This document shows positions 25,712-55,427 of a DNA stretch of 64,000 nucleotides, one piece after another. The DNA comes from a bacterium (GTDB taxonomy: Bacteria > Bdellovibrionota > Bacteriovoracia > Bacteriovoracales > Bacteriovoracaceae): positions 181,066-245,065 of the forward strand of contig JAUHVL010000002.1 of assembly GCA_030425045.1 (NCBI GenBank), written 5' to 3'. Under the pieces are notes generated by a model that did not search any database, was not told where the DNA came from, and worked only from the letters and a program-made list of their open reading frames with translations. The position numbers were made by a program, and so were the translations under genes. Position 1 is the stretch's first letter; each line of letters opens with the position of its first letter.

Positions 25712-25884
25712 AAAAAAACATCCTTGTTTTTCGACATTTAAAATGCTCCCGTCGTGGTCGCACCCACTTCGTGGGCCAGTTTTAAATATCTATCAACTTT
25801 AATCGTAGAGATGGCCAATACTTGCCCGTTAGGGTGAGGCCATGGATGGCCGAATATTGGTTATCACAAAACATGGAAGTTTTA
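25712..25884 (-). repeat. Structured dispersed repeat, copy 1 of 4
   Basis: Reading on the minus strand: end arm, module I (outer stem GATAACCAATA/TATTGGCCATC, hairpin GGCCATCCATGGCC, small hairpin CCCTAACGGG), spacer, module II (outer stem TTTAAAA/TTTTAAA, hairpin CCCACGAAGTGGG, conserved GCGACCACGACGGGAGCAT), end arm AAAACATCC-type. It occupies most of the 411-bp gap between the PNP gene stop and the His-rich lipoprotein start. Nothing else was recognised in the rest of that gap. Orientation matches the PNP gene upstream of it. Confidence 0.85.
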
Positions 25885-25978
25885 ATTTATATTTTGTAAG
25901 TAATTGGAACTTTGTAAATGTTACGAGTTTACGTTGAAAACTTATCTCCAATTAAAGGCATCAGCTTAAAAAGAATAA

Positions 25979-26791
25979 TTAGATTTTACTGACAATTTTT
26001 TCAACGAGAGTAGAGAAAGTCTCAGTCACTTTCTTTGCTTGTTCTTTGACATCATCATGAGCAAGCACTTCATCTTTAATTCCTGCCGCCATATTGGTAA
26101 CGCAAGAGATACCACCAACAATAAGTCCACAGTGATGAGCGGCGATGGCCTCAGGGACCGTACTCATGCCAACAAGATCTGCCCCAATTGTTTTAAACAT
26201 ACGGATTTCAGCTGGGGTTTCATAAGTTGGCCCGAGCACACCGACATAGACTCCCGATTTAATTTTAATTTCACATTCAGAAGCAGCAGAATTAATAATT
26301 TCTCTGAAGTCTTTATTATAAGCATTACTCATATCGGGAAAGCGAGGACCAAGTTCTTCAAGGTTTTCGCCAACGAGAGGGTTTTTTCCTGTCATATTGA
26401 TATGATCTTTAATCACCACAAGATCACCCGGATTATAGTCGGTATTGATTCCACCAGCGGCGTTGGTTAATAATAAATATTTTACACCTAAGAACTTCAT
26501 CACTCGTGCAGGAAAGACGATTTGATCTTGGTCATGACCTTCATAGGCATGATAACGTCCACTTAAACAAATCACAGGTGTCGATCCTATTTTTCCAAAA
26601 ATAAGTTCTCCCGTATGACCGGCAACACTGGTTCTTTTAAACCCAATAATATTTTCATAGGGAATAGCTTTAATATCAGCCAGTCTCTTTTTAAATTCAC
26701 CGAGACCGGAGCCCAAGGTAATGGCCATCTTGGGAGTTTCTGGTAATTCACTTTTAATAAAGTCGGCACTTTGTTTAATAAGATCTAACAT
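25979..26791 (-). CDS. punA: Purine-nucleoside phosphorylase (trimeric family)
   Basis: A protein of 270 aa. Family motifs: phosphate-binding GSGLG near residue 28 and SGRYHAYEGHD about residue 78, LLTNAAGGIN (base/ribose pocket), and GVLGPTYETPAEIRMFKTIGADLVGMSTVPE with the purine-binding Glu and Asn region. It cleaves purine nucleosides with phosphate to base and ribose-1-phosphate. The length is as expected for the low-molecular-mass trimeric type. It overlaps deoA by seven bases, so the two are coupled in a salvage operon. It is followed by structured repeat copy 1. Confidence 0.94.
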   Translation of the reverse strand: MLDLIKQSADFIKSELPETPKMAITLGSGLGEFKKRLADIKAIPYENIIGFKRTSVAGHTGELIFGKIGSTPVICLSGRYHAYEGHDQDQIVFPARVMKFLGVKYLLLTNAAGGINTDYNPGDLVVIKDHINMTGKNPLVGENLEELGPRFPDMSNAYNKDFREIINSAASECEIKIKSGVYVGVLGPTYETPAEIRMFKTIGADLVGMSTVPEAIAAHHCGLIVGGISCVTNMAAGIKDEVLAHDDVKEQAKKVTETFSTLVEKIVSKI

Positions 26792-28131
26792 GACATTTCT
26801 CCAGCTACTAAACTGATTTTGGTTTCTTCAATAAGAGACGGATAACTCGTTTTATTTTTATTCTTTATTATAATATCTTTTTGTAAAATCTGTGATTCAA
26901 TTTCTGAAACAATTTCTTTTTGATTGTCGTTGAAATAAATCGTCGTCAAGACGTCACCTTTTTTGACTTTATCTCCTCTTTTTTTATGAAGATAGAGTCC
27001 GGTACCAAAATCAATTTTATCACTTGTTTTAACTCGACCGCCACCTAAGGCAACACAATGAAGACCAAAGTTTTTACATTCGATATGAGTGAGGTAACCT
27101 GATTTTGGCGCGAGGATTTCTTTTTTATTTTTTGCTAGAGGGAGTAAATCATACTGATCGACAACTTTTGCATCTCCCTTTTGATGAGCTATAAGCTTTT
27201 TTAGGCAGGCAAGTCCAGAGCCATCTTTAAGAGCTGCTTTGGCCTTTTTGATTCCGCCTTTATGGGTTTTACTTTTTCCTGCTAAATGGATCATGCCACC
27301 AGCAAGGTGTACGGAAAGCTCTTCTAAATCTTTAGGACCTTTTCCTTTTAGCGTTTCAAAACATTCGATTAATTCAAGAGAGTTTCCAATGGCATTCCCT
27401 AGAGGTTGGTTCATGTCGGTAATAGAAACCATCATATGACGATTAAAACTAAGCCCTGTTTGCACAATACTACGGGCCAGTTTTTTTGCTTGGCCTTTGG
27501 TCTCCATAAAAGCGCCATTACCCCATTTAATGTCCATCACAATTCCAGCAGCACCTTCTGCCAGTTTTTTACTCATTATAGAAGCGGTAATAAGGGGGAT
27601 GCTTGAAATGGTGGCCGTCACATCTCTTAGAGCATAAAGTTTTTTATCGGCAGGGGCGAGATCTCCAGTTTGTCCCATCAAGACAACACCTTCTTTGATA
27701 AGGTGATCTTGAAAATCTTCTAGTGTTAATTGAGTTTGAAAACCTTTGATCGCTTCGATCTTATCAACTGTTCCGCCAGTGTGACCAAGTCCTCTTCCGG
27801 CAACCATGGGAACCTTTACTCCACATGCAGCGGCAAGGGGAGCGATAATAAAACTCGTTTTATCTCCCACTCCGCCAGTTGAATGCTTATCGATCACAGT
27901 CGGGTCATTAAAATTCATGGTCGCGCCAGAGAACATCATGGCCTTCGTGAGGGCAGCTGTTTCTTTTTTATTTAGCCCGTTGATATAAATCGCCATCAGA
28001 AGAGCGGCCGATTGATAATCTGTAATACTTCCGTCTGTAATTCCTTTTACAAACTGGGTGATTTGATTTTCTGAAAGTGTTCCACCATCTCTTTTTATCG
28101 CGATGATTTCTGGAGGATAAAACATGCTCAC
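26785..28131 (-). CDS. deoA: Thymidine/pyrimidine-nucleoside phosphorylase
   Basis: A protein of 448 aa. Starts IIAIKRDGGTLSENQI as in DeoA. The glycosyltransferase-3 signature appears in DKHSTGGVGDKTSFIIAPLAAACG, with the phosphate-binding Lys/Ser, and RGLGHTGGTVDKIEAIKG follows. The C-terminal PYNP domain closes the cleft. It converts thymidine and phosphate to thymine and deoxyribose-1-phosphate. Together with PNP and the nearby nucleoside transporter it forms a nucleoside-scavenging set, useful for a cell that consumes host or environmental DNA. Confidence 0.95.
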   Translation of the reverse strand: MSMFYPPEIIAIKRDGGTLSENQITQFVKGITDGSITDYQSAALLMAIYINGLNKKETAALTKAMMFSGATMNFNDPTVIDKHSTGGVGDKTSFIIAPLAAACGVKVPMVAGRGLGHTGGTVDKIEAIKGFQTQLTLEDFQDHLIKEGVVLMGQTGDLAPADKKLYALRDVTATISSIPLITASIMSKKLAEGAAGIVMDIKWGNGAFMETKGQAKKLARSIVQTGLSFNRHMMVSITDMNQPLGNAIGNSLELIECFETLKGKGPKDLEELSVHLAGGMIHLAGKSKTHKGGIKKAKAALKDGSGLACLKKLIAHQKGDAKVVDQYDLLPLAKNKKEILAPKSGYLTHIECKNFGLHCVALGGGRVKTSDKIDFGTGLYLHKKRGDKVKKGDVLTTIYFNDNQKEIVSEIESQILQKDIIIKNKNKTSYPSLIEETKISLVAGEMSC

Positions 28132-28286
28132 TTCCTTTACCCGACTGTATTCATCTCTTTATGAAATCTTGACTCATGCACTGTTATGATTCATTGTATA
28201 AGTAAGGCAAATGTCGAGAGTGCTGATCATAGTTTTTTTTTGGCATTTCGACAATCTGATGAGAATCAAGGATGTGTTTAAGGCCT

Positions 28287-28736
28287 ATGAAAAGTTTTTT
28301 AAGATCATTAATCATTTCCGTATTTTTAATTACTTCTTCTAGCAATACTTTCGCCCAAAATGATGATCCTCTTTTGGATACCTCAATGCGAGACGCGTTA
28401 ACGGTTGTAGCGATGGGTACAGTTGGGGCCGTCTTGGGTTTATCGACTCTCTCTTTTGTCGAAGAACCTAAAGAACATCTAAAAAATATCGTTGTTGGTG
28501 GTGCCATCGGTATCATTATCGGGGTTGGGATTGTTGCGTGGGGTCAGGCATCTAAAAGTCGTGATTCTTACCAGCAGACTTTTGATGATGGTGGCGAGGC
28601 CAGTCTTACTCCCAGTGAATACCCAACATATGCAAGAAGAATCTGGCATCACGAGGCCCATTCAGGGCAAGTTCACAGCTTAAGAATTAATAAACAATTG
28701 ACCGGACAGCTTGGCAGTTATACGTTTTCTTTCTAA
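28287..28736 (+). CDS. Small membrane protein of unknown function
   Basis: 149 aa from the ATG at 28287, chosen because it gives a proper signal peptide (MKSFLRSLIISVFLITSSSN then TFA); an ATG 15 bases upstream is in frame. Two further hydrophobic segments (about 40-60 and 70-90) are rich in Gly, Val and Ile. The C-terminal half is polar and ends YTFSF with aromatic alternation. It is divergent from deoA and 18 bases ahead of the nucleoside transporter, so it may be co-transcribed with it. No family assigned. Confidence 0.65.
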   Translation: MKSFLRSLIISVFLITSSSNTFAQNDDPLLDTSMRDALTVVAMGTVGAVLGLSTLSFVEEPKEHLKNIVVGGAIGIIIGVGIVAWGQASKSRDSYQQTFDDGGEASLTPSEYPTYARRIWHHEAHSGQVHSLRINKQLTGQLGSYTFSF

Positions 28737-28754
28737 TTTTTAATTGGAAAGTTT

Positions 28755-29972
28755 ATGATGGAACGACTCATGTCTGTAGTGGGCCTATTTTCTATGTTGG
28801 CCTTGGCCTATACCTTTAGTACTCACCGTAAAAAAATAAATTGGAAAATGGTTGGTAAAGGAGTGGGGATACAAATTATCTTTGCCCTTCTTATTTTAAA
28901 AACAGATGCCGGGATGTCTGTTTTTGAAGGAGCTCGTTTCTTTTTCAATGAACTTTTAAATTTTTCAAATGAAGGATCAAAATTTATTTTTGGTGAACTG
29001 GCCAACGATAAACGTTTTGGTTTTATTTTTGTCACCATGGTTCTTCCGACCATTATTTTTATGTCTTCTCTGATGAGTGTTTTATATCACCTAGGTGTTG
29101 CTCAATACCTTATTAAAGGTGTGGCCGTTGTGATGGTTAAAGTTTTAGGAACATCAGGAGCAGAATCTCTTTCAGCTGCGGCCAATATTTTTGTGGGGCA
29201 AACTGAAGCTCCATTGGTGATTAAACCTTATATTGATAAGATGACCAGATCAGAAGTCATGGCCTTAATGACTGGAGGAATGGCAACTGTTGCTGGAGGT
29301 GTCTTTGCCGCTTATGTTGGTATGGGAATTAATGCTGGACATTTACTTGCCGCTTCTGTGATGTCCGCACCTGCAGCATTGATTATCGGAAAAATTCTTG
29401 TGCCTGAAACAGAAGTGTCATCAACTTATGGTGAAGTAAAAATGAAAGTCGAAAAGACGACGGTGAATATTATCGATGCCGCTGCCGGAGGAGCTGCTGA
29501 AGGTTTAAAGTTATCACTGAATGTTGCGGGAATGTTATTGGCCTTTATCGCTTTGATTGCACTGTTAAATGGAATGCTCTCTATTGTGGGAGGCTGGATA
29601 GGTTATCCTAGCCTTTCTCTTGAGTTGATTACCGGGTATCTATTTGCCCCTTTTGCTCTTTTATTAGGTGTCCCTTTTTCTGATGCTATGGCCGTGGGAA
29701 CGTTACTTGGAAAAAAAATTATCATCAATGAGTTTGTGGCCTATCTCGATCTTCAAACTCTTAAATCAACACTATCTGAAAGAAGTGTTGTCATCTCAAC
29801 ATATGCTCTTTGTGGCTTTGCTAACTTTAGCTCGATAGCCATTCAAATTGGTGGGATTGGAACTCTCGCTCCGGGGCGAAGATCTGAGCTTGCTGAGCTT
29901 GGAATCAAGTCTTTGATCGGGGGAACTCTGGCCTGTTTTATGACGGCTTGTATTGCGGGAATACTTCTCTAA
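28755..29972 (+). CDS. Concentrative nucleoside transporter, NupC family
   Basis: A protein of 405 aa with about eight TM helices plus re-entrant hairpins. It has the CNT signature regions: VLGTSGAESLSAAANIFVGQTEAPLVIKPY (cited as its two halves GTSGAESLSAAANIF and VGQTEAPLVIKPY), MTGGMATVAGGVFAAY and CGFANFSSIAIQIGGIGTLAP. These include the nucleoside- and cation-coordinating residues. It imports nucleosides with H+ or Na+ across the inner membrane. It lies beside deoA and PNP on the other strand, consistent with uptake followed by phosphorolysis. Confidence 0.94.
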   Translation: MMERLMSVVGLFSMLALAYTFSTHRKKINWKMVGKGVGIQIIFALLILKTDAGMSVFEGARFFFNELLNFSNEGSKFIFGELANDKRFGFIFVTMVLPTIIFMSSLMSVLYHLGVAQYLIKGVAVVMVKVLGTSGAESLSAAANIFVGQTEAPLVIKPYIDKMTRSEVMALMTGGMATVAGGVFAAYVGMGINAGHLLAASVMSAPAALIIGKILVPETEVSSTYGEVKMKVEKTTVNIIDAAAGGAAEGLKLSLNVAGMLLAFIALIALLNGMLSIVGGWIGYPSLSLELITGYLFAPFALLLGVPFSDAMAVGTLLGKKIIINEFVAYLDLQTLKSTLSERSVVISTYALCGFANFSSIAIQIGGIGTLAPGRRSELAELGIKSLIGGTLACFMTACIAGILL

Positions 29973-30004
29973 TTGACCATAAAACTGGTCAAAAAGGCTT
30001 TTTT
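29973..30004 (+). terminator. Candidate terminator after the nucleoside transporter
   Basis: TTGACCA (29973-29979) and TGGTCAA (29986-29992) pair perfectly around TAAAAC, directly after the stop codon, and a T6 run follows at 29999-30004. The gap between stem and T-run is longer than ideal, so termination efficiency is uncertain. Confidence 0.5.
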
Positions 30005-30137
30005 CGATAGATTTTACACCTCTGAAACTTGTAAGTCCCCGAACTTATAAAGAGCTGACCTCCGCCACGTTCTGAAATTTATCAAGTGATAGAATAGTTT
30101 ATTGTTTTTAAATCACCTCGTGGGTGGAGAAACAAAG

Positions 30138-30764
30138 ATGCTAGATAAACAAATAAATATTCTTCTGGTCGACGATGAGCTCGAGATTCGAACCATCCTT
30201 TATGAGATGCTTCAATTGGAAGGATTCAATAATATCATTCGTGCTAAAGACGGCGAAGAAGCGATAGAAAAAATTAAAGATAATAATATCGATTTGGTGA
30301 TTTCAGATATCAAAATGCCTCGTATGGATGGGATTGAACTTTTAAATTATGTTCATGATCATTTAGAAAAAATTCCTTTTATTTTTATCTCAGGCTTTTG
30401 TGAAATGATCGATCCAAAAGAAGCATTTAGTAAAGGTGTCGTCGCCTTTATTAAAAAACCTTTTAGCCTTGGTGTTGTTCTCGAAGAGATGGATAAGGTC
30501 TATGCAAAAATTGAAGGAAAAAGGGAAGAGCAGATTGAGCTTCATCCTTTTCCTCTCGATGAAATTCATGTCCTAAGACATTTTGATATCGCGATCTTTT
30601 TAAAACTTGAAAATGATAAAATTATAGAATTTGCTGATAACGCTTCGTTAATAAATGAAGAAAAAATTCAAACATTACAAGAGAAGGGAATTGATCATCT
30701 TTTTATCGAGACTGATGACTATCATATGGTGTTAAAGTCTCTGAATGCGCAGAAGGCAAACTAA
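30138..30764 (+). CDS. Response regulator with receiver domain and uncharacterised C-terminal domain
   Basis: 208 aa from the ATG at 30138, which has GGTGGAG upstream; an in-frame ATG 36 bases earlier has no SD. Receiver domain at residues 1-120: acidic pocket LLVDDELE, phospho-Asp in DLVISDIKMPRMDG, the conserved Ser in FIFISGF and Lys in FIKKPF. The C-terminal ~85 residues are not a recognised DNA-binding domain. The end (IDHLFIETDDYHMVLKSL) resembles the start of a DUF3391-like region found before HD-GYP domains, but no HD-GYP follows. No kinase is adjacent. Confidence 0.85.
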   Translation: MLDKQINILLVDDELEIRTILYEMLQLEGFNNIIRAKDGEEAIEKIKDNNIDLVISDIKMPRMDGIELLNYVHDHLEKIPFIFISGFCEMIDPKEAFSKGVVAFIKKPFSLGVVLEEMDKVYAKIEGKREEQIELHPFPLDEIHVLRHFDIAIFLKLENDKIIEFADNASLINEEKIQTLQEKGIDHLFIETDDYHMVLKSLNAQKAN

Positions 30765-30766
30765 TT

Positions 30767-30937
30767 TTAAAACATCCATGTTTTATGATAACCAATATCG
30801 GGTCATCCTTGACCCGACCCTCCGGGCAAGTATTGGCCATCTTTCTATTAACTTTAAAAGATATTTTAAAATAGCCCACGAAGTGGGGGCGACCAGGATG
30901 GGAGCATTTTAAATATCAAAAAACATGGACGTTTTTA
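30767..30937 (+). repeat. Structured dispersed repeat, copy 2 of 4
   Basis: End arm AAAACATCCATGTTTT, module I (GATAACCAATA/TATTGGCCATC, hairpin GGGTCATCCTTGACCC, CCCTCCGGG), a spacer, and module II (TTAAAAT/ATTTTAA, hairpin CCCACGAAGTGGG, conserved GCGACCAGGATGGGAGCAT), closing with AAAACATGGACGTTTT. It starts three bases after the response-regulator stop and precedes the RNase G gene by 111 bp. Confidence 0.87.
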
Positions 30938-31048
30938 AAGAAGGACCAATTTAAAAATTAAAGTAGTTGACCGTTTTAAATACTCAGATAAATTTTTCCA
31001 CTAAAGAAACTTAAGACTAAGTTATCTAAAAAATGTTAAAATTCCCCC

Positions 31049-32626
31049 ATGACAAAGAAAATTTATATCAATCAAACAGTGAATGAATGTCGAGCAGCGC
31101 TCGTCGAAAATGAAGAAATATTAGACTTCTTAATGGAGAGAAGTGCGGGGCAAAAGGGAAACCACCCTTCCGTTGGTAATATTTATAAAGGGAAGGTCCT
31201 TCGTGTTCTCCCTGGTATGCAATCTGCTTTTGTCGATATCGGTTATGAGAAAGCCGCTTTTTTATATGTTGATGATGCGTATATTCCTACGATCGAAGAG
31301 CAACGAGAAATTGCTGAGCGGACTAAAAAAGAAATGGAAAAACAGCAAAAAGCTGGAGAGGTCATTCCCGATGAACTTTCAACTCTCTCAGATCAAATCA
31401 ATATGCGCTTTCGTCCTGAAGTTGGAATTGAAGACTTTCTCAAAGAGGGTCAAGAAATTCTCGTACAAGTGGCAAAAGAACCGATCTCAACTAAAGGTCC
31501 TCGGATAACAAGACATATTACTCTGGCAGGACGTCATGTGGTCTTTATGCCTTTCATTGAACACTCTGGTGTTTCTAGAAGAATTGAAAATGAACAAGAA
31601 CGTGATCGTTTAAAAGATATTCTCTATTCCATCCGCTCCGAAGGTCGAGGAATAATTGCGAGAACTGTTGCCGAAGGGCAGTCCTATAAAGTTCTAAAAA
31701 ACGACTACAATATGATGGTCAAAATTTGGAAAGACGTTGAGAAAAAAGGGGAGAAAGCAAAAGCACCTTCACTTTGTTATCAGGATCTCAATTTCGTTCA
31801 GCGAGTTCTTAGAGATATTACTGATGAAGATATCGATACTATTTATATTGACGATAAAGATAATCAAAAAGAAGCTGAAAAATTTATCAGTAAATATCTT
31901 CCCAACATAAAAGGTAAAGTTGAATTTTACGAGGATGATATCCCGCTCTTTGAAAAACATGGCATCGACATGGAGATTGAAAGAGGGATTGATAATAAAG
32001 TTTTTCTTCGCTCAGGCGGGTCATTAAATATAGATCAAACGGAAGCGTTGGTTTCAATTGATGTGAACACCGGTAAGTTTGTCGGAAGAAAAACTCTTGA
32101 AGAAACAATTTTAAGAACGAATCTCGAAGCCGTTAAAGAAATTGCTTATCAATTGAGACTAAGAAACTGTGGTGGAATTATTATTGTTGATTTTATCGAC
32201 ATGGAAAAAGAAGAGCACCGTGAACAAGTTTATACCGCTTTTGTCGAGGCCTTAAAAAAAGACCGCGCCAAAACAAATGTGCTTCCCATTTCTGGACTTG
32301 GCCTGGTTGAAATGACTCGTAAGAGAACCAGAGACACCCTCACTCGAATCATGTGTCGAAGCTGTCCATACTGTGAAGGCACAGGAAAAGTGAAGTCTAC
32401 ACTAACAGTTTGTTATGAGCTGGTAAGAGAGCTCACAAAAACGCTTAAGAAAAGTAAAGGCGCTAAAGTTTATATTTACGCTCATCCCGAAGTGACGGAT
32501 CATTTGTGCAGTGAAGATCTCGACATGATTGAAATGCTCGAGGAAACCTTTGGCCGCTCTCTCATTATTCGCTCTGAAAATAATTATCATGTAGAGCAAT
32601 ACGAGATTTTACCTCAAGAGTATTAA
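31049..32626 (+). CDS. rng: Ribonuclease G (RNase E/G family)
   Basis: A protein of 525 aa, the short RNase G length without the long degradosome-binding tail of RNase E. S1 domain at about 35-125 (GNIYKGKVLRVLPGMQSAFVD), then the RNase H-like and DNase I-like catalytic core with Mg2+ ligands in SIDVNTGKFVG and GGIIIVDFIDM, and the zinc link CRSCPYCEGTG. It is an endonuclease that cuts single-stranded AU-rich RNA and matures rRNA and mRNA. No SD is seen before the ATG, which follows a C5 run. Structured repeat copy 2 lies in its leader region. Confidence 0.95.
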   Translation: MTKKIYINQTVNECRAALVENEEILDFLMERSAGQKGNHPSVGNIYKGKVLRVLPGMQSAFVDIGYEKAAFLYVDDAYIPTIEEQREIAERTKKEMEKQQKAGEVIPDELSTLSDQINMRFRPEVGIEDFLKEGQEILVQVAKEPISTKGPRITRHITLAGRHVVFMPFIEHSGVSRRIENEQERDRLKDILYSIRSEGRGIIARTVAEGQSYKVLKNDYNMMVKIWKDVEKKGEKAKAPSLCYQDLNFVQRVLRDITDEDIDTIYIDDKDNQKEAEKFISKYLPNIKGKVEFYEDDIPLFEKHGIDMEIERGIDNKVFLRSGGSLNIDQTEALVSIDVNTGKFVGRKTLEETILRTNLEAVKEIAYQLRLRNCGGIIIVDFIDMEKEEHREQVYTAFVEALKKDRAKTNVLPISGLGLVEMTRKRTRDTLTRIMCRSCPYCEGTGKVKSTLTVCYELVRELTKTLKKSKGAKVYIYAHPEVTDHLCSEDLDMIEMLEETFGRSLIIRSENNYHVEQYEILPQEY

Positions 32627-32642
32627 TTCCTCGTTTAGCCTT

Positions 32643-32828
32643 ATGAGTGAAAACAAGTCACAACAGTTTGCCAAAAAACTCTTATCGATTCTTGGTGAAA
32701 ATAAATGGAGACAAGAGGCGCGCTGGGTTCTTCTCATTATTATTTTAGTTGCGTTTATTTTTTTGATTAAACCAGAGTTGATTAGTCGTAAGCCGAGTAT
32801 AAAGAACTTTCAACAGCAATCAAATTAG
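32643..32828 (+). CDS. Small single-pass membrane protein
   Basis: 61 aa: a charged N-terminus (1-27), one TM segment (about 28-44, VLLIIILVAFIFLIKP) and a short basic tail. The start lies 16 bases after the rng stop and the stop codon overlaps the convergent DAHP synthase end by four bases. No SD is strong. It is similar in arrangement to unannotated small inner-membrane proteins. Function unknown. Confidence 0.55.
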   Translation: MSENKSQQFAKKLLSILGENKWRQEARWVLLIIILVAFIFLIKPELISRKPSIKNFQQQSN

Positions 32829-33880: not shown

Positions 33881-33933
33881 ATTGCGACATGTTATACATG
33901 AATTCGCTTTTTGAAAAGAGAATTTTTAAGCGT

Positions 33934-34848: not shown

Positions 34849-37152
34849 ATGAATGTCGGATTTATCTTAACATCTCATACTTACGACGGAACTCAGGGCC
34901 TAAATATAAGTTTCATGGGGACTTCTGATGAGGGAGCTTTTGAATTACGGTTTGAACAAGAAAAAGCCGTTTTCTTTGTCAACTCAGATAGTGAATTTAA
35001 TCTTCCCGTAAAACATGAAAGAAAACCACTCGCTCTAAGTGATTTTAATCGTAAAAATGTTGATGCCCTTTATTTTTCTCGCTTGAGTGATCTCTATGAT
35101 GCTCGCGAATTTCTCAATGAAAAAGGAGTTCGAACTTTTGAAGCGGATGTAAGGCCTGCGGAACGTTTTTTAATGGAACGTTTTATTAAGGGCTCTGTTG
35201 AGTTTCAAAGCGAACAAGTTATCGTGGAAAAGGGCGTGCGTGTTTTTAAAAATCCTCAGATAAGACCGACGTTTTATAACCCATCTCTTTCAACGTTATC
35301 TGTCGATATCGAAACTTCCCGAGGTAATGATCTTTATTCTATTGGCCTACATTATCGTGACCGTCATAGAGAAGTTAAGCAGATTTTTATGGTGGGAGAA
35401 AACCAAGGCCCTCTTGAACAAGGAGAGTTAAGTTATTATCCCGATGAAAAATCTTGTTATCTTGCTTTCGAACAATCGTTTAAAAAGCTAGATCCCGATT
35501 TAGTCTTAGGTTGGCATGTGGTCGGATTTGATTTGTTATTTTTAGAGAGAAAATGCCGAAGCTGGGGAATGAGATTAAATTTAGGTAGAAAGGGTAGAGA
35601 GGTTTATCTAAGAGAAAATTCAAATAATCGTGGATGGAATGCTGATATCTATGGACGTTGTGTACTTGATGGACCTCCTGTTTTAAGGGGAGCTTTTTTT
35701 AGTTTTGAGAATTTTAAACTCGATACTGTCGCAGCGGAAGTTTTGGGGCGAAAAAAAATAATCAATCAAACGGGCATGGAAAAAGTTAAAGAAATTGAAC
35801 ATCGCTTTCGTGAAGATAAGGTGGCGCTGGCCCACTATAATTTAGAAGACTGTGTTCTGGTGACAGATATTTTAAAAGAAACAGATCTCATCAATCTCAT
35901 CACTCAAAGAGTTTTTCTAACAGGGCTTCTTATCGATCGTGTTGGTTTTTCAACATCAGCATTTGATTATTTCATGTTACCTCTTATTCATCGAAAGGGA
36001 ATGGTCGCTCCCAATATACTAGATATGAATAGAACGGAGCAAACAGCTGGAGGTTTGGTGTTAGAGCCTGACGCCGGAATGCATGAGGGGGTTTTCGTTC
36101 TCGATTTTAAAAGTCTTTATCCCACTATTATTAGAACATTTAAAATTGATCCCTATTCAAGGCTTAATGCCGACATCGATACGGTAACGACCCCAACGAA
36201 TCATCAGTTTTCAGGTAGTGAACATTTACTTCCCGAGTTTTTAAAAGAATTAATGGAAAGAAGAGCAGAGGCAAAGAAAAATGATAATGGTCCTTTGTCT
36301 CAGGCGATTAAAATATTAATGAACAGTTTGTATGGAGTGATGGGAACCACGCGAAGTCGTTTTTATCATGCTGACTTACCAAGTGCGATTACGGGAACTG
36401 GTCAGTGGCTTTTAAAAGAGACGATAAGTTTTTTAAACGCTGAAGGACATCAGGTGGTTTATGGTGATACGGATTCTGTTTTTGTAAAGGCCAATCTTTT
36501 AAAGAGTGAAGGCCGTGCGCTCGCTGAAAATATAAATCAAAAAATTAATCAAATGATTCGTGAGAAGTTTAAAGTGGAATCATTTTTAGAATTGGAGTTT
36601 GAAAAATATTTTAATCGAATTTATCTTCCCAAACTTCGAGGCTCAGATGTGGGAGCGAAGAAAAAATATGTCGGTCTTTTAGAAAATAGAGATGGCGAAC
36701 TTGAAGTCTACTTCTCTGGAATGGAATACGTCAGAAGTGATTGGACTAAGCTGGCTAAAAATTTTCAATTGAAGTTGTATCAGAAGTTTATGAAAGGAGA
36801 AGATGTCGAAGAGTTTATCAAGGAAACGATAAATGATTTAGGCTCGGGTATCTATGACTCTGATCTCGTTTATCAAAAAAGAATGAGTAAAAAACTTGAG
36901 GAATACACAAAATCTAAGCCTCCCCATGTTCGAGCGGCGCAAATACTCAAAGAAAACCAAATGGAAGTTCCTGGCACCATTGAATATGTTGTAACTCAAA
37001 ATGGTCCGATGCCAATTGAGCTAAACCCAACCCAATATGATTACGAACATTATCGAGAAAAACAAATCCGTCCGCTAGCGGAAGTGGTTTTAGAGCATCT
37101 AGGCGTGAAATTTGATGATCTCTTTGGTGGAGGTCAGCTCGATCTTTTCTAA
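34849..37152 (+). CDS. polB: DNA polymerase II, family B
   Basis: A protein of 767 aa, the expected size. 3'-5' exonuclease motifs: Exo I LSVDIETSRG, Exo II LGWHVVGFDLLFLERKC, Exo III HYNLEDCVLV. Polymerase motifs: A VFVLDFKSLYPTIIRTFKIDP (split here at its core DFKSLYPTIIR), B IKILMNSLYGVMG, C VVYGDTDSVFVK. It is a SOS-linked high-fidelity repair polymerase in enterobacteria. No LexA-like box was identified upstream. It is monocistronic or followed by the beta-barrel gene 55 bp later. Confidence 0.96.
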   Translation: MNVGFILTSHTYDGTQGLNISFMGTSDEGAFELRFEQEKAVFFVNSDSEFNLPVKHERKPLALSDFNRKNVDALYFSRLSDLYDAREFLNEKGVRTFEADVRPAERFLMERFIKGSVEFQSEQVIVEKGVRVFKNPQIRPTFYNPSLSTLSVDIETSRGNDLYSIGLHYRDRHREVKQIFMVGENQGPLEQGELSYYPDEKSCYLAFEQSFKKLDPDLVLGWHVVGFDLLFLERKCRSWGMRLNLGRKGREVYLRENSNNRGWNADIYGRCVLDGPPVLRGAFFSFENFKLDTVAAEVLGRKKIINQTGMEKVKEIEHRFREDKVALAHYNLEDCVLVTDILKETDLINLITQRVFLTGLLIDRVGFSTSAFDYFMLPLIHRKGMVAPNILDMNRTEQTAGGLVLEPDAGMHEGVFVLDFKSLYPTIIRTFKIDPYSRLNADIDTVTTPTNHQFSGSEHLLPEFLKELMERRAEAKKNDNGPLSQAIKILMNSLYGVMGTTRSRFYHADLPSAITGTGQWLLKETISFLNAEGHQVVYGDTDSVFVKANLLKSEGRALAENINQKINQMIREKFKVESFLELEFEKYFNRIYLPKLRGSDVGAKKKYVGLLENRDGELEVYFSGMEYVRSDWTKLAKNFQLKLYQKFMKGEDVEEFIKETINDLGSGIYDSDLVYQKRMSKKLEEYTKSKPPHVRAAQILKENQMEVPGTIEYVVTQNGPMPIELNPTQYDYEHYREKQIRPLAEVVLEHLGVKFDDLFGGGQLDLF

Positions 37153-42789: not shown

Positions 42790-42972
42790 AAAACATCCTT
42801 GTTTTGAGATAACCAATATCGGTCCATCCTTGGACCGACCCTGAGGGCAAGTATTGGTCATCTTTTGATTTTTAACGTCGTTTAATAGTTTATGGATGCT
42901 CTGAACTAGCCCACGTAGTGGGTGCGACCAGGATGGGAGCATTCTGAGTATCAAAAAACATGGATGTTTTTT
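42790..42972 (+). repeat. Structured dispersed repeat, copy 3 of 4
   Basis: End arm AAAACATCCTTGTTTT, module I (GATAACCAATA/TATTGGTCATC, hairpin GGTCCATCCTTGGACC, CCCTGAGGG), spacer, module II (CTCTGAA/TTCTGAG, hairpin CCCACGTAGTGGG, conserved GCGACCAGGATGGGAGCAT), end arm AAAACATGGATGTTTT. It lies 64 bases after the aspS stop in the same orientation. It fills most of the gap before the convergent small membrane gene. Confidence 0.88.
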
Positions 42973-44184: not shown

Positions 44185-44202
44185 GATCTCTCCAAAATAT
44201 GT

Positions 44203-46734: not shown

Positions 46735-46747
46735 GAGTAATTCTGAA

Positions 46748-49935: not shown

Positions 49936-50582
49936 TTTAAAAAATCTTGTGGACGATTTTGAATAAAGCTAATAATAGCCCTTGTATGCATACACAGGGC
50001 CTTTTTTATATGCTCGGTAGATAAATGTGGTTGATTTTTACATTTCTCTTTCATTGTAGGAGTACAAGAACAAAGCCCAAGATGAACAATATTGGAAAAA
50101 ATCATACGCACGGCCCAGTCTCTCGCCTCTAGTGGGATCGATTCACCAACCGTTTGAGTAATCTTTTTCATAAAAGCTTTGTGACCAGGAGGGCCCATTT
50201 CTTCTTCCTCTTGGCACATCATCTCAGGTGGAATAGTAACCTCGTCACTTAGAAAGATCTTAAAGGTATTCATCATGGCCGGACCATTTTCTATAAAAAA
50301 CTGAAAGACTTTCGCCGTTAGCTCTTCAAGAGAAAGGGATTCTTCTTTGGCCAGGGCTTCAATATTAGATGCCAACCAGTCGTGATTGTGAGCGAAGACT
50401 TGGAGGTAAAGATTATCTTTATTATCAAAATGGTAATTAATGGCTGAGAGGTTTACTTCGGCTTGCCTAGCTATTTCTCTAACAGAAGTACCACTAAAAC
50501 CGTGACGTGCAAAAAGTCTTGCGGCCACTTCGATAATTTTTTCTTTTGTATCTTTTTGTTCTCTCATTTCTTTAGGAGACAT
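49929..50582 (-). CDS. TetR/AcrR-family transcriptional repressor
   Basis: 217 aa. N-terminal HTH (IIEVAARLFARHGFSGTSVREIARQAEVNLSAINYHFDNKD in the usual TetR order, cited here by its core GTSVREIARQAEV). The C-terminal ligand domain resembles CecR/YbiH-type regulators (GPAMMNTFKIFLSDEV). Two ATGs are close; the later one fits the coupling to the RND gene. It is the last gene of the tolC-RND operon, and a palindrome before tolC (55163-55182) is its probable operator, giving autoregulation by the drug or metabolite it binds. Confidence 0.9.
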   Translation of the reverse strand: MSPKEMREQKDTKEKIIEVAARLFARHGFSGTSVREIARQAEVNLSAINYHFDNKDNLYLQVFAHNHDWLASNIEALAKEESLSLEELTAKVFQFFIENGPAMMNTFKIFLSDEVTIPPEMMCQEEEEMGPPGHKAFMKKITQTVGESIPLEARDWAVRMIFSNIVHLGLCSCTPTMKEKCKNQPHLSTEHIKKALCMHTRAIISFIQNRPQDFLNQ

Positions 50583-53500
50583 GACTTTTCTCCTTTAAGT
50601 TAATATTATTTTTTGATTTTAAAAACAATCTTTCAGTTAAACTACTGACATCTTCTAATATCGCATAGGCACAAGGGACCCAAACAAGGGTAAGAATTGT
50701 TCCACTCGTTAAACCCCAGGCCATGGCCAACGTCATAGGAATTAAAATGGCATCACTTCCGCCAATTCCATAGGCCGTTGGAATAAGACCAGAAATGGTC
50801 GTTAATGAGGTAACCATAACAGCACGTAGTCTTAAACCTGAAGCGCGAGCAAGAATCTGGTTAAAGGGAAGTTTTCCTTCCTCTCGCATCTGGTCGATAA
50901 AACTAATGAGTACAATTCCAGAGTTTACAATAATACCACCAAGACCGATGATTCCAATCAGCGCCATAAAACTAATAGGTCTGCCGTGAAAGAAAAAGGC
51001 GACACTAAAACCTAAGAGCCCTAAGGGAATTGTCGTCATGATAATCATTGGACGAATAAAACTTTTAAAAAGAAAAACAAGCAGGGCAAAAATGCCAATT
51101 AATGATAAAACTAAGGCCTGATAGAGACTATCCATCGATTCTTTCGTACTCTCAGCGGCCCCTCCAAAAACTAAACTCACCCCGGGAAACTCTGATCGAT
51201 ACTGATTATAGAGATCACTCAACTTAGCGTTAACGACTACGGGAGTGGTAATATCCTCATTCACATCTCCCGTGAGCGTTTTTGAGCGTTTGAAATCAAA
51301 TCTTTTAATTTGAGGGCTTCCTTCATTAATAGAAAAGGTGGCAAAGCTATTGAGTGGAACGAGGTTTCCTCTCCCATCAAGAATGGAAATACTTCCTAGA
51401 TCATCGAGATTTTTTCTTTGTCCTTCTTTAAAGCGAACGATGAGATCCACATCTTTGTTATTGAGAGTGACTGTAGAAATTCTTCGACCACTAATCGCGG
51501 CCCTTACTGTCGAGCCAATATTATTAATATCGAGACCGAGGCGATCTGCTTTTTGGTAGTCAATATTGACAAATATTTCATCATCTCCAATCACATCATC
51601 AATTCTTAAATCACTTACCCCATTTATTTTTGAAAGCTCAGCGCTAATTTTATTAATCAGTCCATAGAGTTTTGACTTATCATTTGATCTAAAGGTCGCT
51701 TCGATATCATTTCCAACGGGAGGGCCATTTACCATGGCCTCAAAAGAAAGTGAGGTGACTTCTTGTGGGGGAGTGATGGTTCTGAGTTTTTCAATCATCT
51801 CAGTATGGGGAATATTAAATTTAGCATAATCATTAACATAAATTGAAATCATGCCAACATTATTACCTTCTTTTCCTTTGGGATCATTCATATCCATTCT
51901 GGCGACACCGGCCCTGGCGACAAGGTGAGTAACTTGATCACCAAGTAGAGTTTTGATATCTTGACTGATTTTTTCAATTGTTTGATCGGAGCTTTTAAGA
52001 CGATAGCCTTTTTTCATTTCCACTCTCGCCACATACATTTCTGTTTGATCAGGGGGAAATAAAATGAACTTATTAGCAAAGCCCATCATATAAAAACTAA
52101 AAACAATGATGCCACTAAAAACTATAGTGATCCAATAACGTTTTTGCACAATAAAAGACATGAACTTTTCAAAACGCGCTTCAAAGTGAGAAAACCAATC
52201 AGACTTTCCATCTTCTTTTACCGCTTTTACATTTCCACCAGCAAGTTTCAATCTCATGGGAAGAAAAAAGAAACTTTCAAAGAGAGAAAGTACCAGAGAT
52301 AGGGAAACCACAATGGGAATCCATTTAATAAATTTACCCATCACTCCTTTTGTTACAAGCATAGGCATAAAGGCAGCAATGGTTGTAAAAGCCGTGGCGG
52401 TAATGGGGAGCCAAAGTTGAGCAATCGATGTTCTGGCCGCTTCCATGGGATCCATTCCCTCTCGCCTTAAGCGAGTGAAATTTTCACTAATGACAACGGA
52501 GTTATCGACGAGCATCCCAAGGGCAATCACCAAGGCCAAAATGGTAATGGTATCAATATTCATACCGTAATAGGGCATCAACCCTAATGTTCCAAAAATG
52601 GCAATCGGTAAGGACATGGAGGCCACAAGACCAATTTTTCCCGGAAGAAAAATGAAAAGAAAAAGAATAACCAGAAGAAGTCCACTTATAGCATTACTAA
52701 AAAGCACATCAACACGATTTTTAACTTTTAAACTTTCATTATTATAAATTTTAAAAGCATATTCTGGATATTCACTTCGAAAATACTCGAGTTTTTGATC
52801 GACCTCATCAACCATGGCAATCGTATCGGCACCTGCTTTTTTGGTGACCACGAGAAGAGTTGCCTCATTTCCATTATGACGAGCGAGAGTGGTGATTTCT
52901 TCTTCGTCATCTTTTACCTCGGCAATATCTTTCAAAAGAACCGTTTGACCAGAGAAGTTTGAACGTATAACCACGTTGTCGAGTTCTTCTTTATTCTTAA
53001 TTTTCCCTTCAACACGCACAAGCCTTTGAGTTTCAGGCTCACGAACGGCACCACCTGGAGTGTTGGTATTTCGAGAATTGATTTTTCTTAACACTTCGTC
53101 CATGGAAATATGCTGTGTTTGCATTTTTTTTAGATCGAGCTCTATTTGAAAGGCCCGTTCAGCATAACCGACAAGCCTTACTTCTTTTATTCGTTTATCG
53201 TCTTCTAATTCTTCTTTTAAAAGATCTGAAATAAGATCTCTTTTTCTGTTTGTATTAACGCCCTCTACGGCAATTTCAATAACAGGAAATTCTTCACTTT
53301 TCATTTCCGTAAATTTTGGAGGATCAACGAGATCAGCGGGAAGATCATTGGTTCGATCTACGGCCTTTTGAATTTCATCCATGGTATCTTTAACGATGAC
53401 TTTAGGATCATCAATATCAACTCTGACAATAATAGTAGAAAGGCCAGCTTGAGAAATCGATCTTGTATCTTTTAGGCCAGTCACACCTCTTATTTCATCT

Positions 53501-53706
53501 TCGATTGGCTTGGTGATTTTTGTTTCAATATCTTCAGCTGTGGCGCCATCATAAGAAGTGACGATGGTGGCGACACCCATCTCAACGGCAGGGAAGCTTT
53601 CCACATTCATTCTCTTAAGGCCCATAAACCCCATGATCACCACACCAATGGTAAGAACGAGAGTGAACTTATAATTCTTTATAAAAAATTCGCTAAGAGC
53701 TTGCAT
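50572..53706 (-). CDS. RND efflux transporter (AcrB/MdtB-like inner-membrane pump)
   Basis: 1044 aa, the expected length. Twelve TM helices with two large periplasmic loops. TM4 reads GMLVDNSVVISENF, so the Asp pair of AcrB-type proton relays is Asp-Asn here; the TM11 equivalent is GGIIVNSGIVLIS. It takes substrates from the periplasm or inner membrane. It follows tolC and precedes tetR in an operon, and its stop overlaps the tetR start. No membrane-fusion (adaptor) gene lies with it. Confidence 0.94.
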   Translation of the reverse strand: MQALSEFFIKNYKFTLVLTIGVVIMGFMGLKRMNVESFPAVEMGVATIVTSYDGATAEDIETKITKPIEDEIRGVTGLKDTRSISQAGLSTIIVRVDIDDPKVIVKDTMDEIQKAVDRTNDLPADLVDPPKFTEMKSEEFPVIEIAVEGVNTNRKRDLISDLLKEELEDDKRIKEVRLVGYAERAFQIELDLKKMQTQHISMDEVLRKINSRNTNTPGGAVREPETQRLVRVEGKIKNKEELDNVVIRSNFSGQTVLLKDIAEVKDDEEEITTLARHNGNEATLLVVTKKAGADTIAMVDEVDQKLEYFRSEYPEYAFKIYNNESLKVKNRVDVLFSNAISGLLLVILFLFIFLPGKIGLVASMSLPIAIFGTLGLMPYYGMNIDTITILALVIALGMLVDNSVVISENFTRLRREGMDPMEAARTSIAQLWLPITATAFTTIAAFMPMLVTKGVMGKFIKWIPIVVSLSLVLSLFESFFFLPMRLKLAGGNVKAVKEDGKSDWFSHFEARFEKFMSFIVQKRYWITIVFSGIIVFSFYMMGFANKFILFPPDQTEMYVARVEMKKGYRLKSSDQTIEKISQDIKTLLGDQVTHLVARAGVARMDMNDPKGKEGNNVGMISIYVNDYAKFNIPHTEMIEKLRTITPPQEVTSLSFEAMVNGPPVGNDIEATFRSNDKSKLYGLINKISAELSKINGVSDLRIDDVIGDDEIFVNIDYQKADRLGLDINNIGSTVRAAISGRRISTVTLNNKDVDLIVRFKEGQRKNLDDLGSISILDGRGNLVPLNSFATFSINEGSPQIKRFDFKRSKTLTGDVNEDITTPVVVNAKLSDLYNQYRSEFPGVSLVFGGAAESTKESMDSLYQALVLSLIGIFALLVFLFKSFIRPMIIMTTIPLGLLGFSVAFFFHGRPISFMALIGIIGLGGIIVNSGIVLISFIDQMREEGKLPFNQILARASGLRLRAVMVTSLTTISGLIPTAYGIGGSDAILIPMTLAMAWGLTSGTILTLVWVPCAYAILEDVSSLTERLFLKSKNNINLKEKSHVS

Positions 53707-53708
53707 AA

Positions 53709-55151
53709 TTAAATCCTATTGATGTCACAAGGGGTTTTTTGATAAACGCTAAAATAATCTAAAAGAGTATGCATCGCCGTTAGATTAGTTTGAATTTCAT
53801 CGAGTTTACTTTGAAAATAACTTTCTTCTTCTTGAATAATATCAGTCGCCGAAAGTCTCGCTTGGCGATATTTCTTACGGCTAACTTTTAAAGATTTTTC
53901 TAAAAAACTGGAGTTAAGTTTTTGTGTTTTAAGAGCCTCAAAAAGATGTCCTATCGTATACTTAATTTGATGATGATAAGTTTTAATCTTTGCCATTTGT
54001 TCTTTTCTGGTGGCCTCAGACATAATCCGATTTATTTCACCTTGAATTTTTTCATTTTTCTTTTTTTGACTACCGAGCGGAATGTTGAGTTGGAGACCAA
54101 CAGTATAACGACGTTGACGATTATCTTGAAAATCATCAAAGGCAGGTGAGCTTCCCCCAACACCTCTTCCTAATGCTTCATAACTTCCCACGAGTTTAAC
54201 ATCAGCTCCGCTATGGGCCCCAATGATTCGGTTTCTAAGGGATTCTTCTTTATTGATAGCAGCGATCATTTCATCATAATAAGTGTTTTCAAAAGGGGAC
54301 TCTTTGGTTTGATTGATGACCAAACTACAGGCGTAGACTTTTTGAATCGTTTTATCGATATCATAGGGAGCGAGAGTTAAGTTCTCTTCAGCAAGACTGG
54401 GGACTAATTCCTTTAGTGACGTATAAAGAGCATCTTTTCGATACTCTAAACTAATAAGAGATGACTTTCGACTGGCCACCAAGGCTTGGTAACGAGCAAC
54501 TTCACCGCTATCGGCAACTTTATTTTTAAAGCGACGATTCACTTCGGCCAGTGACTTTTTCGCTGACTCTAAAAGTATGTTGGTAATATTGCGAGACTCA
54601 TTATTGGCCACTAGACTCCAATAAAGTTTACGAAGAGTATTTCTAAAACTAGCAACGTGAATTTTCTTTTGATAATTAGCTCGATCAGAAGTGGACTCAC
54701 TTAATTTAAGTTGATTGTGATCAATCCTTCCCAAAAAATTTCGATTAAGATCCATACTTAAATTAAAACCAGCTCCTTGTGTGGTGGCACTATCTAAAAA
54801 ATCGTTGGTAAAATTCTCCATAAAAACTTCACCTCCTAACTCAATACCTTTAGATAGTGCTTTTTTCACACCGAGCTTGTAGGCGTTTGCTCTTTGAGTA
54901 GTGGGCATAAAACTGATAAACGATTTTTCGTCAGAATTGGTATGAGTTCCTTGTCCATAAAGAGTGGGAATAAACTTTTCTTTGTAAGACTCATACTCCA
55001 AGCGAGATTGTAGTTGCGAGGCCTCAATTTTTTGCAAACCAGGTAATTGCTCTACTTTGAGCTGAATCAGCGACTCCTCAGTTATTTCAAGAGAATAGAC
55101 CATACTCGAAAAGAGAAATAACGCTAAGGTGTTGATAATATTAGTTTTCAT
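53709..55151 (-). CDS. TolC-like outer-membrane efflux channel
   Basis: 480 aa with a signal peptide (MKTNIINTLALFLFSSMVYS). Two TolC repeats, each with long helical segments (LPGLQKIEASQLQSRLEYESYKEKF and RKKYRQARLSATDIIQEEESYFQSKL, shown in part), ending in a helical tail. It forms the trimeric outer-membrane exit duct of RND pumps. It is first in the operon and is separated by only two bases from the RND gene. Note that the usual adaptor is missing from this operon. Confidence 0.9.
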   Translation of the reverse strand: MKTNIINTLALFLFSSMVYSLEITEESLIQLKVEQLPGLQKIEASQLQSRLEYESYKEKFIPTLYGQGTHTNSDEKSFISFMPTTQRANAYKLGVKKALSKGIELGGEVFMENFTNDFLDSATTQGAGFNLSMDLNRNFLGRIDHNQLKLSESTSDRANYQKKIHVASFRNTLRKLYWSLVANNESRNITNILLESAKKSLAEVNRRFKNKVADSGEVARYQALVASRKSSLISLEYRKDALYTSLKELVPSLAEENLTLAPYDIDKTIQKVYACSLVINQTKESPFENTYYDEMIAAINKEESLRNRIIGAHSGADVKLVGSYEALGRGVGGSSPAFDDFQDNRQRRYTVGLQLNIPLGSQKKKNEKIQGEINRIMSEATRKEQMAKIKTYHHQIKYTIGHLFEALKTQKLNSSFLEKSLKVSRKKYRQARLSATDIIQEEESYFQSKLDEIQTNLTAMHTLLDYFSVYQKTPCDINRI

Positions 55152-55162
55152 ACGATTGTCCT

Positions 55163-55182
55163 ATTCAAACGTTTGTTTGAAT
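55163..55182. promoter_or_regulatory. TetR-type operator, ATTCAAAC-GTTT-GTTTGAAT
   Basis: A perfect 8+8 palindrome with a four-base centre, 12 bases upstream of the tolC start codon, overlapping the leader or promoter. Its size and symmetry are typical of TetR-family operators. The tetR gene at the end of the operon would repress transcription by binding here. Confidence 0.72.
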
Positions 55183-55244
55183 TTAGACTAGACTTTGAAT
55201 GATTACAAGTAATTTTTGAAAATTTCTTTTTGTCTAAGTCAATG

Positions 55245-55427
55245 AAAAAACATCCCTGTTTTTAGACTCTCAGAATGCTCCCATCGTGGTCGCACCCACT
55301 GCGTGGGCAAGTTCTGAGTATCGATCAATCTTTAAACATTAATAGAAGTCTGAGATGGCCAAAACTTGCCCGTAGGGTCGGTCCAAGGATGGACCGATAT
55401 TGGTTATCTCAAAACATGGATGTTTTA
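55245..55427 (-). repeat. Structured dispersed repeat, copy 4 of 4
   Basis: On the minus strand: end arm AAAACATCCATGTTTT, module I (GATAACCAATA/TTTTGGCCATC, hairpin GGTCCATCCTTGGACC, CCCTACGGG), spacer, module II (CTCAGAA/TTCTGAG, hairpin CCCACGCAGTGGG, conserved GCGACCACGATGGGAGCAT), end arm AAAACAGGGATGTTTTT-like. It lies between the RDD-gene stop (55438) and the tolC start (55151), in the orientation of the RDD gene. Confidence 0.88.

Follow-up and report, generated by a model that had tools for sequence, protein, structure and literature searches.

Results

Structured repeats in the window

The window, i.e. the whole stretch of 64,000 nt that was analysed, contains four copies of a structured repeat, with the stems, loops and conserved strings that the earlier note had described. 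These four copies are the centre of something larger, and in copy 1 the complete element can be delimited. Columns refer to alignment A1, which, like the motif counts below, comprises the 42 copies of the first genome search, out of 60.

25648..25968, minus strand: complete element around copy 1, B type, core and both arms, 321 bp (locus L035, from arm location)
25712..25884, minus: core of copy 1
25810..25865, plus: copy 1 module I, three-way-junction unit, GGA strand plus (A1 columns 20-75)
25733..25790, minus: copy 1 module II, three-way-junction unit, GGA strand minus (A1 columns 108-165)
25871..25880, plus: left-arm hairpin site of copy 1, ACATGGAAGT, in agreement with the RsmE/CsrA consensus (motif match)
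25718..25727, minus: right-arm hairpin site of copy 1, ACAAGGATGT, in agreement with the RsmE/CsrA consensus (motif match)
30767..30937, plus: core of copy 2, starting 3 nt past a stop codon; B-type arms not recognisable
30787..30841, minus: copy 2 module I, with GGA-loop site TCAAGGATGA at 30803-30812 (minus)
30860..30917, plus: copy 2 module II, loop AGGATG retained
30772..30781, minus: copy 2 left-arm site ACATGGATGT
30923..30932, plus: copy 2 right-arm site ACATGGACGT
42790..42972, plus: 183-bp core of copy 3, A type, lacking recognisable B-type arms
42808..42862, minus: copy 3 module I, GGA loop at about 42824-42833 (minus)
42895..42952, plus: copy 3 module II, loop AGGATG retained
42793..42802, minus: copy 3 left-arm site ACAAGGATGT
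42958..42967, plus: copy 3 right-arm site ACATGGATGT
55245..55427, minus: core of copy 4, A type, 10 nt past a stop codon; B-type arms not recognisable
55354..55408, plus: copy 4 module I
55265..55322, minus: copy 4 module II
55414..55423, plus: copy 4 left-arm site ACATGGATGT
55250..55259, minus: copy 4 right-arm site ACAGGGATGT

When a single copy served as the query, 42 matches were obtained in the genome, the weakest with E=4.5e-24, well outside what chance would produce. The covariance-model search proposed in the earlier note recovered further copies in the same genome and reached other genera among the relatives. Collected locally, they amount to 60 distinct copies or contig-end pieces in the host genome, of which 52 are full cores. 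At the DNA level, the search of relatives gave a 31-nt match in G041 only, and phages, plasmids and viral contigs gave zero matches, in searches that possibly leave out records from the genome's own source. The sole match among genome contigs (L059) lies inside a long open reading frame and was dismissed as a chance match in coding sequence. The Rfam comparison, also suggested earlier, yielded no match in the window at gathering thresholds, TwoAYGGAY (RF01731) included, and weak chance-level matches only around copy 3 and at five loci. Folded as DNA, copy 3 had a z-score of -6.15, and none of 200 shuffles was equally stable.

The element is a MITE

Of the 60 copies, 24 have two arms that run out to the tips and extend the core to about 317 bp (range 258-324 bp), with inverted tips TAAACTGAT. 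Perfect 9-bp target duplications flank 11 of these 24 armed copies. Allowing small shifts, the flanking 9-mers match at 8.04 of 9 positions on average, compared to 5.60 for 552 swapped pairs; at fixed ends, flank agreement is 0.856 at 9 bp and 0.31-0.43 at 5-8 and 10-12 bp, so that identity peaks at 9 bp only. The flanking 9-mers of the copy 1 element agree at only 6 of 9 positions at fixed ends, or 7 when shifted by one base, and its duplication has therefore decayed. Only 2 of 42 cores overlap an open reading frame of at least 80 aa, and these short elements carry no transposase of their own. The element is a MITE, and the earlier suggestion of a non-autonomous mobile element is borne out by the 9-bp target duplications. 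That the cores form part of a longer element, and that modules I and II are inverted homologues, had been overlooked in the first reading.

ERIC, REP/BIME and REPIN can be likened to this element by description, as palindromic intergenic repeats; the 9-bp duplication, by contrast, points to a DDE-type mover. One might read the element as a repeat of the REP/REPIN type, mobilised by the Y1 (RAYT-like) transposase of the host genome, for which there is a single Y1_Tnp match, and its two inverted hairpin units do resemble a REPIN. To our knowledge, 9-bp duplications and inverted tips are not expected from Y1 transposition, and both are present here; moreover, the 3.3 kb around the Y1_Tnp gene (L049) hold no unit match. 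We rejected Y1/RAYT as the mover on these grounds, the duplications telling against it for the arm-bearing copies, and consider the REPIN explanation highly improbable. IS110 was likewise rejected as the mover of this element, the host genome having no Transposase_20, and attC-like integron sites were dropped because the copies are dispersed and not arrayed.

Each half carries a structured unit with a strand preference

Modules I and II represent the same three-way-junction unit in opposite orientations. For covariation we used alignment A2, with 19 rows chosen from the 84 own-genome modules (42 copies) and three distant units, 22 rows in total. Double compensatory changes were found in 12 of 20 pairs; the mean in shuffles was 8.6, and 2 of 500 shuffles were as high. 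The covariation score of the unit was 0.408, compared to 0.149 in shuffles and 0.050-0.090 in slid controls, which supports the proposed selection on structure. A measure of further pair types showed no excess over shuffles (71 of 500 as high in one run, 498 of 500 in another). Structure and mobile element had been offered as alternatives; each is supported, by the covariation and by the target duplications respectively, and the choice between them falls away, as both hold. Much of the sequence variation tracks the splits between A and B types and between modules I and II.

An ordinary MITE might carry such hairpins as DNA sites for a transposase or a host DNA-binding protein, with no role for the RNA. 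The elements are clearly DNA transposons, with palindromic arms and a quasi-symmetric core, and the model therefore scores the opposite strand too. However, across 18 pairs in the 19 own-genome rows, the GGA strand shows 25 G·U against 0 A·C, and such G·U pairs on the GGA strand only are unexpected for a double-stranded site. The three distant rows hold 2 G·U and 3 A·C.

In predicted folds of full-length transcripts the arms are folded shut, and in minimum free energy folds of full-length cores a hairpin loop with such a GGA is absent from 40 of 42 copies on the plus strand and from 29 of 42 on the minus strand. When the outward halves are folded, minus halves place two GGA sites in hairpin loops in 24 copies, one in 17 and none in 1; for plus halves the respective counts are 3, 37 and 2.

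Predicted CsrA sites

Published work gives the RsmE/CsrA site forms as A/UCANGGANGU/A and CANGGANG (PMC6849547), and the CsrA site as RUACARGGAUGU with an ANGGAN hexaloop, two sites being bridged at 10-63 nt with an optimum above 18 nt (PMC7652899). On the GGA strand, the arms of the element read ACANGGANGT, the published RsmE/CsrA consensus, and have the form A/UCANGGANGU/A (WCANGGANGW) in 39 left and 38 right arms, out of 42 each; the opposite strand of these regions has 0 matches. Copies average 1.98 motif matches, compared to 0.0175 in 8,400 shuffles, one of which had at least two. In each arm, the two N positions belong to the nine columns that vary most outside the spacer. A looser form, CA(n)GGAnG, is found in 40 of 42 modules I but in only 3 of 42 modules II, and most plus strands therefore have one good site. 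The two GGA sites are spaced by 28 nt in 41 of 42 copies on the module I side and in 42 of 42 on the other, within the bridging range on one RNA. Beyond the elements, the window shows no enrichment of the motif: of 14 occurrences 9 lie in elements, and 6.83 were expected overall.

The host genome encodes CsrA (E=1.6e-25), next to an open reading frame that we take to be FliW. The csrA gene is near-universal, scoring over the cut-off in 116 of 126 genomes; none was found in G070, which has a doubtful unit, and G017 has only a contig-end fragment below the cut-off.

Genomic context

The earlier note placed all four copies directly behind a gene of the same strand. This is correct in the window, where they lie 3, 10, 63 and 94 nt past an open reading frame, but it does not extend to the genome: tandem gene gaps hold 7 copies on the strand of the genes and 10 on the opposite strand, which removes the argument from orientation and rules out a same-strand 3'-UTR rule. 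Instead, copies are located mainly between convergent genes. Considering the 47 element placements with an open reading frame on both sides, 27 gaps are convergent, compared to 7 of 113 other gaps (Fisher p=6e-12, with a background uncorrected for gap length).

This placement would suit a two-way terminator or a 3'-end stabiliser that insulates a mobile element and is kept between convergent genes. T runs close the right arm in nearly all aligned copies, and the terminator scan, performed on copy 3 alone, made a single call: the module I hairpin at 42818-42839, read on the minus strand, with 0.3 calls expected from shuffles. Yet the T runs are preceded by weak A/T hairpins only, nothing was called at the right arm of copy 3, avoidance of promoters would yield the convergent enrichment as well, and the ACANGGANGT pattern and the fixed spacing are left unexplained. 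We therefore judge a terminator role to be quite unlikely.

Units in other genomes

In G088, a relative from another genus, the unit is found at one end of an insertion sequence, and an IS1-like transposase starts at one of the opposite ends. When eight transposase-side ends were combined with eight unit-side ends (64 combinations), six pairs agreed at 9/9 and one at 8/9. A relative of the G114 transposase (40% over 42 aa, E=1.6e-5) starts at the paired end, L186. The G114 and G119 transposases match NF033558 at 43.3 and 37.5 bits and, since this is below the curated cut-off of 100 bits, the mover is called only IS1-like; Pfam gave nothing above cut-offs for this type of transposase. A related insertion sequence in G114 (L216, with its transposase at 1524-2417 on the minus strand) has such tips without a unit match.

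The GGA sites are 26-28 nt apart in five other genomes, with a distance between GGA starts of 31 in G088, G149 and G104, 30 in G017 and 29 in G063. The doubtful units of G070 (44 bits; unit loop without CAGGA) and G035 (32 bits; its other GGA hairpin lying upstream) were left out of this statement. The GGA strand lies antisense to an IS110 transposase in both G017 and G063; of the two G063 copies, L157 no longer has a GGA in its unit loop (CAGAGAGG). The second hairpin in G088 reads CTAGGATGG or CTAGGAAGG and departs from the CA(n)GGAnG pattern. Whether the second GGA is placed in a loop depends on the stretch folded: neither time in G088 and G017, once or twice in G149, G104 and G063. In G104 the unit lies between two genes.

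The insertion sequence of G088, with the unit near its tip, is what a DNA site would predict. By contrast, the G114 element has such tips yet no unit match, units occur away from such tips in IS110 elements and between the two G104 genes, and in G104 the arm sequence has changed while the GGA hairpin keeps its spacing. Taken with the one-sided G·U pairs, this makes hairpins acting purely as DNA sites unlikely.

Discussion

Our preferred reading, to which we assign a probability of roughly 0.55, is that of a mobile family of about 317 bp with inverted repeats and 9-bp duplications, probably moved by an IS1-like transposase, in which either inverted half encodes a structured RNA predicted to bind one CsrA/RsmA dimer via two GGA hairpin loops 28 nt apart. 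We infer a transposon-borne dual-site module for CsrA. Several observations weigh against this reading: module II mostly lacks the motif, full-length transcripts are predicted to close the arms, IS110 copies in two genomes have the unit antisense, the loop GGA is missing from L157, the second G088 hairpin departs from the pattern, further pair types show no excess over shuffles, the distant rows include A·C, and the motif is not enriched elsewhere in the window. Outward transcripts, in either orientation, would have the unit and the end hairpin on their 3' side, where CsrA could bind. In the IS1-like element, the unit may mark or regulate the 3' end of the transposase mRNA. In the MITE, mostly located between convergent genes, host mRNAs would gain a CsrA-binding 3' UTR, and the copies together might constitute a dispersed CsrA sink. 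Because its halves are homologous and inverted, the MITE looks like two right ends of an insertion sequence fused head to head. A broader proposal, which we put forward tentatively and at somewhat less than even odds, is that a dual-GGA RNA module has been captured, carried and dispersed by unrelated transposons (IS1-like and IS110), and acquired at a further locus, within one bacterial family, with 60 MITE copies or pieces in this genome, and that transposition would rewire or titrate CsrA regardless of orientation.

If this is true, the element would scatter ready-made CsrA-binding sites behind host genes, and every insertion would be functional in either orientation. Bacterial transposons would then disseminate the sites of a global RNA-binding regulator, much like the spread of transcription-factor sites by eukaryotic elements. 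CsrA and a DNA transposon would be linked at the RNA level, and a candidate antagonist RNA of CsrA would exist outside the Gammaproteobacteria. Among the open-access matches listed, titles and abstract openings linked no CsrA site to insertion sequences or MITEs, which is no proof of absence.

The predicted GGA hairpin loops of the element have their counterpart in the CsrA-sequestering RNAs CsrB, CsrC, RsmX, RsmY and RsmZ, with the form CAGGA(U/A/C)G or ANGGAN, as do its pairs of sites at bridging distance (PMC7652899). The element differs in consisting of 60 dispersed mobile copies or pieces instead of one gene, and in having at most two such predicted hairpins per half. In the accessible portion of PMC4333381, TwoAYGGAY RNA (RF01731) contains two such hairpins, has two tandem G-A within one of its stems and is predicted to bind CsrA; it is tied there to Clostridia, with transposons unmentioned. 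Tandem G-A occur in module II here too; scans for TwoAYGGAY itself, over five loci with a limit of E<=0.5 and around copy 3 with E<=5, found nothing. The 9-bp target duplications of the MITE and of G088 are shared with the IS1 family, from which the G114 and G119 transposases are set apart by their sub-threshold scores. Finally, the element resembles other MITEs in being short and multi-copy, with inverted tips, target duplications and an insertion sequence with related tips in the same class. It differs from them in that the centre, not the tips, is best conserved between the A and B types, and in that this centre pairs as RNA, one strand per half.

A mobile element with arms and tips

The earlier note had placed four copies of the repeat in the window, and all four were found there. 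A DNA search of the same genome (3.97 Mb, 91 contigs) with one copy as query returned 42 copies, from which the core alignment was built; a covariance model added more, and local collection gave 60 distinct copies or contig-end pieces, with 52 full cores. Among the first 42, 11 have A-type cores (178-182 bp, with a longer spacer) and 31 have B-type cores (166-170 bp by profile match, with the TTTAAAA stem). Copies of the B type share flanks of about 85 nt to the left of the core and about 65 nt to the right, and end in the tips TAAACTGAT...ATCAGTTTA. A B-type arm score above 50, the best on shuffled flanks being 35 and 42, was obtained on the left in 36/60, on the right in 35/60 and on both sides in 26/60. 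No such arm was found on either side of 15 copies, namely the 11 A types and four B cores:

L020, B core without arms
L036, B core without arms
L021, one B core without arms
L022, one B core without arms

Both arms reach the tips in 24 copies, giving total lengths of 258-324 bp (317 in 8, 315-319 in 19). The 9-mers flanking these 24 agree at 8.04 of 9 positions on average, compared with 5.60 for 552 swapped pairs (9/9 in 11 copies, 8 in 6, 7 in 4, 6 in 3), and with ends fixed the agreement is 0.856 at 9 bp against 0.31-0.43 at 5-8 and 10-12 bp. Such a 9-bp duplication is what a DDE-type transposon leaves at its target. The repeat is firmly established as a mobile element. Window copy 1 is complete, although its target duplication has decayed; B arms were not recognisable at window copies 2, 3 and 4. 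One A-type copy (L011) has, by eye, AATCATTAG on both sides. Tandem core pairs occur at two places (L021, 1784-2227; L022, 1837-2244), and in L021 the right flanks of both cores start alike, which suggests that a core inserted into an older copy or recombined with it.

Each half carries a structured RNA unit

Module II on the plus strand can be aligned with module I on the minus strand, and both with units of three other genomes of the class (G149, G104 and G017). The common unit consists of an outer stem of 11 pairs, a hairpin CCC-n-GGG and a second hairpin bearing a GGA loop. In an alignment of 22 units (19 chosen modules of this genome and three distant units), double changes were seen at 12 of 20 pairs, compared with 8.6 in shuffles (as high in 2/500), and the covariation score of 0.408 exceeded that of shuffled (0.149) and slid (0.050-0.090) controls. 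Further pair types showed no excess over shuffles (71/500). The core alignment alone (41 distinct rows) gave double changes at 9 of 56 pairs (9/500 shuffles as high) and a score of 0.091, compared with 0.065 for shuffled and 0.022-0.043 for slid controls, with further pair types below shuffles; a large share of its covariation tracks the A/B split. Over 18 pairs read on the GGA strand, there are 25 G·U and 0 A·C in the 19 own-genome rows, and 2 and 3 in the three distant rows. The own-genome counts show that module II pairs on the plus strand and module I on the minus, both directed outward from the spacer. The evidence is strong that each half is selected as a structured RNA, on one of its strands. 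The unit model matches 8/126 genomes of the class, this one included. In module II (window 30860-30917 and the other copies), tandem G-A / A-G stands where module I is mostly Watson-Crick; tandem G-A pairs are among the features reported for the TwoAYGGAY RNA too (PMC4333381).

CsrA as a candidate partner

The genome encodes CsrA, beside an ORF that we take to be FliW. In most copies the sequence of both arms, taken on the outward strands, is AACANGGANGTT. The pattern WCANGGANGW occurs in the left arm of 39/42 copies and the right arm of 38/42, and CA(n)GGAnG in module I of 40/42 and module II of 3/42, so that the motif is mostly lost from module II; on the opposite strands of the arm and module regions it was absent in all 42. 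Copies average 1.98 matches against 0.0175 in 8,400 shuffles; in the window outside the elements the motif is at chance level. The N positions are the ones that vary: columns 7, 11, 174 and 178 rank in the top nine for variability outside the spacer. Element sites match a degenerate consensus from the literature, 5'-A/UCANGGANGU/A (PMC6849547), and a SELEX site, RUACARGGAUGU with an ANGGAN hexaloop, from a source that also has CsrA bridging sites 10-63 nt apart (PMC7652899). The GGA-to-GGA distance is 28 nt on the module I side in 41/42 copies, and the module II side has the same 28 nt between matching positions in 42/42, the first of them usually a degenerate nGA. CsrA would be the best-supported partner of the element RNA, with a probability of roughly 55%.

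Besides the loss from module II, several results count against CsrA. In full-length transcripts the arms are predicted to fold onto each other and hide the sites; exposure would be predicted only in transcripts starting inside the element, or with co-transcriptional folding. The GGA strand runs antisense to the transposase in the IS110 elements of both G017 and G063, and no GGA is present in the unit loop of the second G063 copy (L157). The second hairpin of G088 is not a canonical CsrA site, and in other genomes the predicted loops shift with the stretch folded. Since csrA is above the cut-off in 116/126 genomes of the class, its presence is necessary, not telling; in that search G070 was without csrA, and G017 had a fragment.

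Units and tips in other genomes

GGA starts are 31 apart in G088, G149 and G104, 30 in G017 and 29 in one G063 copy (L156). In G104 the stem at this place differs and its loop is CAGGATG; the G104 unit (L111 1518-1578, minus strand) adjoins a long palindrome between divergent ORFs, presumably a KfrA-like one and one similar to a mobilisation protein. The IS110-family loci with a unit include:

L156, 1349-2356 and 2373-2428
L159

The IS110 units of G063 and G017 lie, in antisense, 16-26 nt after the transposase stop and precede a non-coding end of about 450 nt or more, into which, in one G063 copy, a second transposase-like ORF (2913-3959) is inserted. In G035 (L158, around 2343-2405), a unit-like sequence stands beside an apparent tRNA gene whose 3' end recurs after the gene, as in an integration scar.

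Tips like AAACTGAYYTACTTNNNTGG (at most one mismatch) occur in 26/126 genomes of the class; reversed tips match 15 genomes, once each, so single matches carry little meaning. At least seven matches each were found in G088, G087, G015 and the element's own genome. In G114 two such tips surround 1,039 bp containing a 297-aa ORF whose match to IS1 transposases is weak (43.3 bits against a cut-off of 100). G088 has a tip with the unit at 8 contig ends (L166 breaks off inside the unit) and the other tip at 8; among the 64 end combinations, flanking bases are 9/9 alike in six and 8/9 in one, leaving one unpaired end of each kind. L186, the end paired with L166, holds the start of a relative of the G114 transposase, with 40% identity across 42 aa (E=1.6e-5). 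From these two ends we infer that the G088 unit sits at the right-hand end of an element of IS1-like type, in the same direction as the transposase, with the middle unassembled. G088 also has a second inverted-repeat element of roughly 225 bp (L174, C14 near 1199719; L176, C31 near 349647), with similar tips and a different interior. The single Y1_Tnp (RAYT-like) match in the element's own genome (L049 1276-1869, minus strand; C65 near 17527-17784) has no unit in the surrounding 3.3 kb.

Gene context

By crude ORF calls (at least 80 aa), the 47 gaps containing elements are convergent in 27 cases, tandem in 17 and divergent in 3, compared with 7, 84 and 22 among 113 other gaps. This convergent excess (Fisher p=6e-12) is in part just room, since gap lengths were unmatched. 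The earlier note had all four window copies following a gene on the same strand, a pattern that does not extend to the genome: of the copies in tandem gaps, 7 share the strand of the genes and 10 are on the opposite one, and a previous count over 42 copies gave 6 and 6. The same-strand pattern is thus a small-sample effect. A gene for DNA polymerase II, of family B, lies at window 34849-37152 (NF004421, 844.9 bits).
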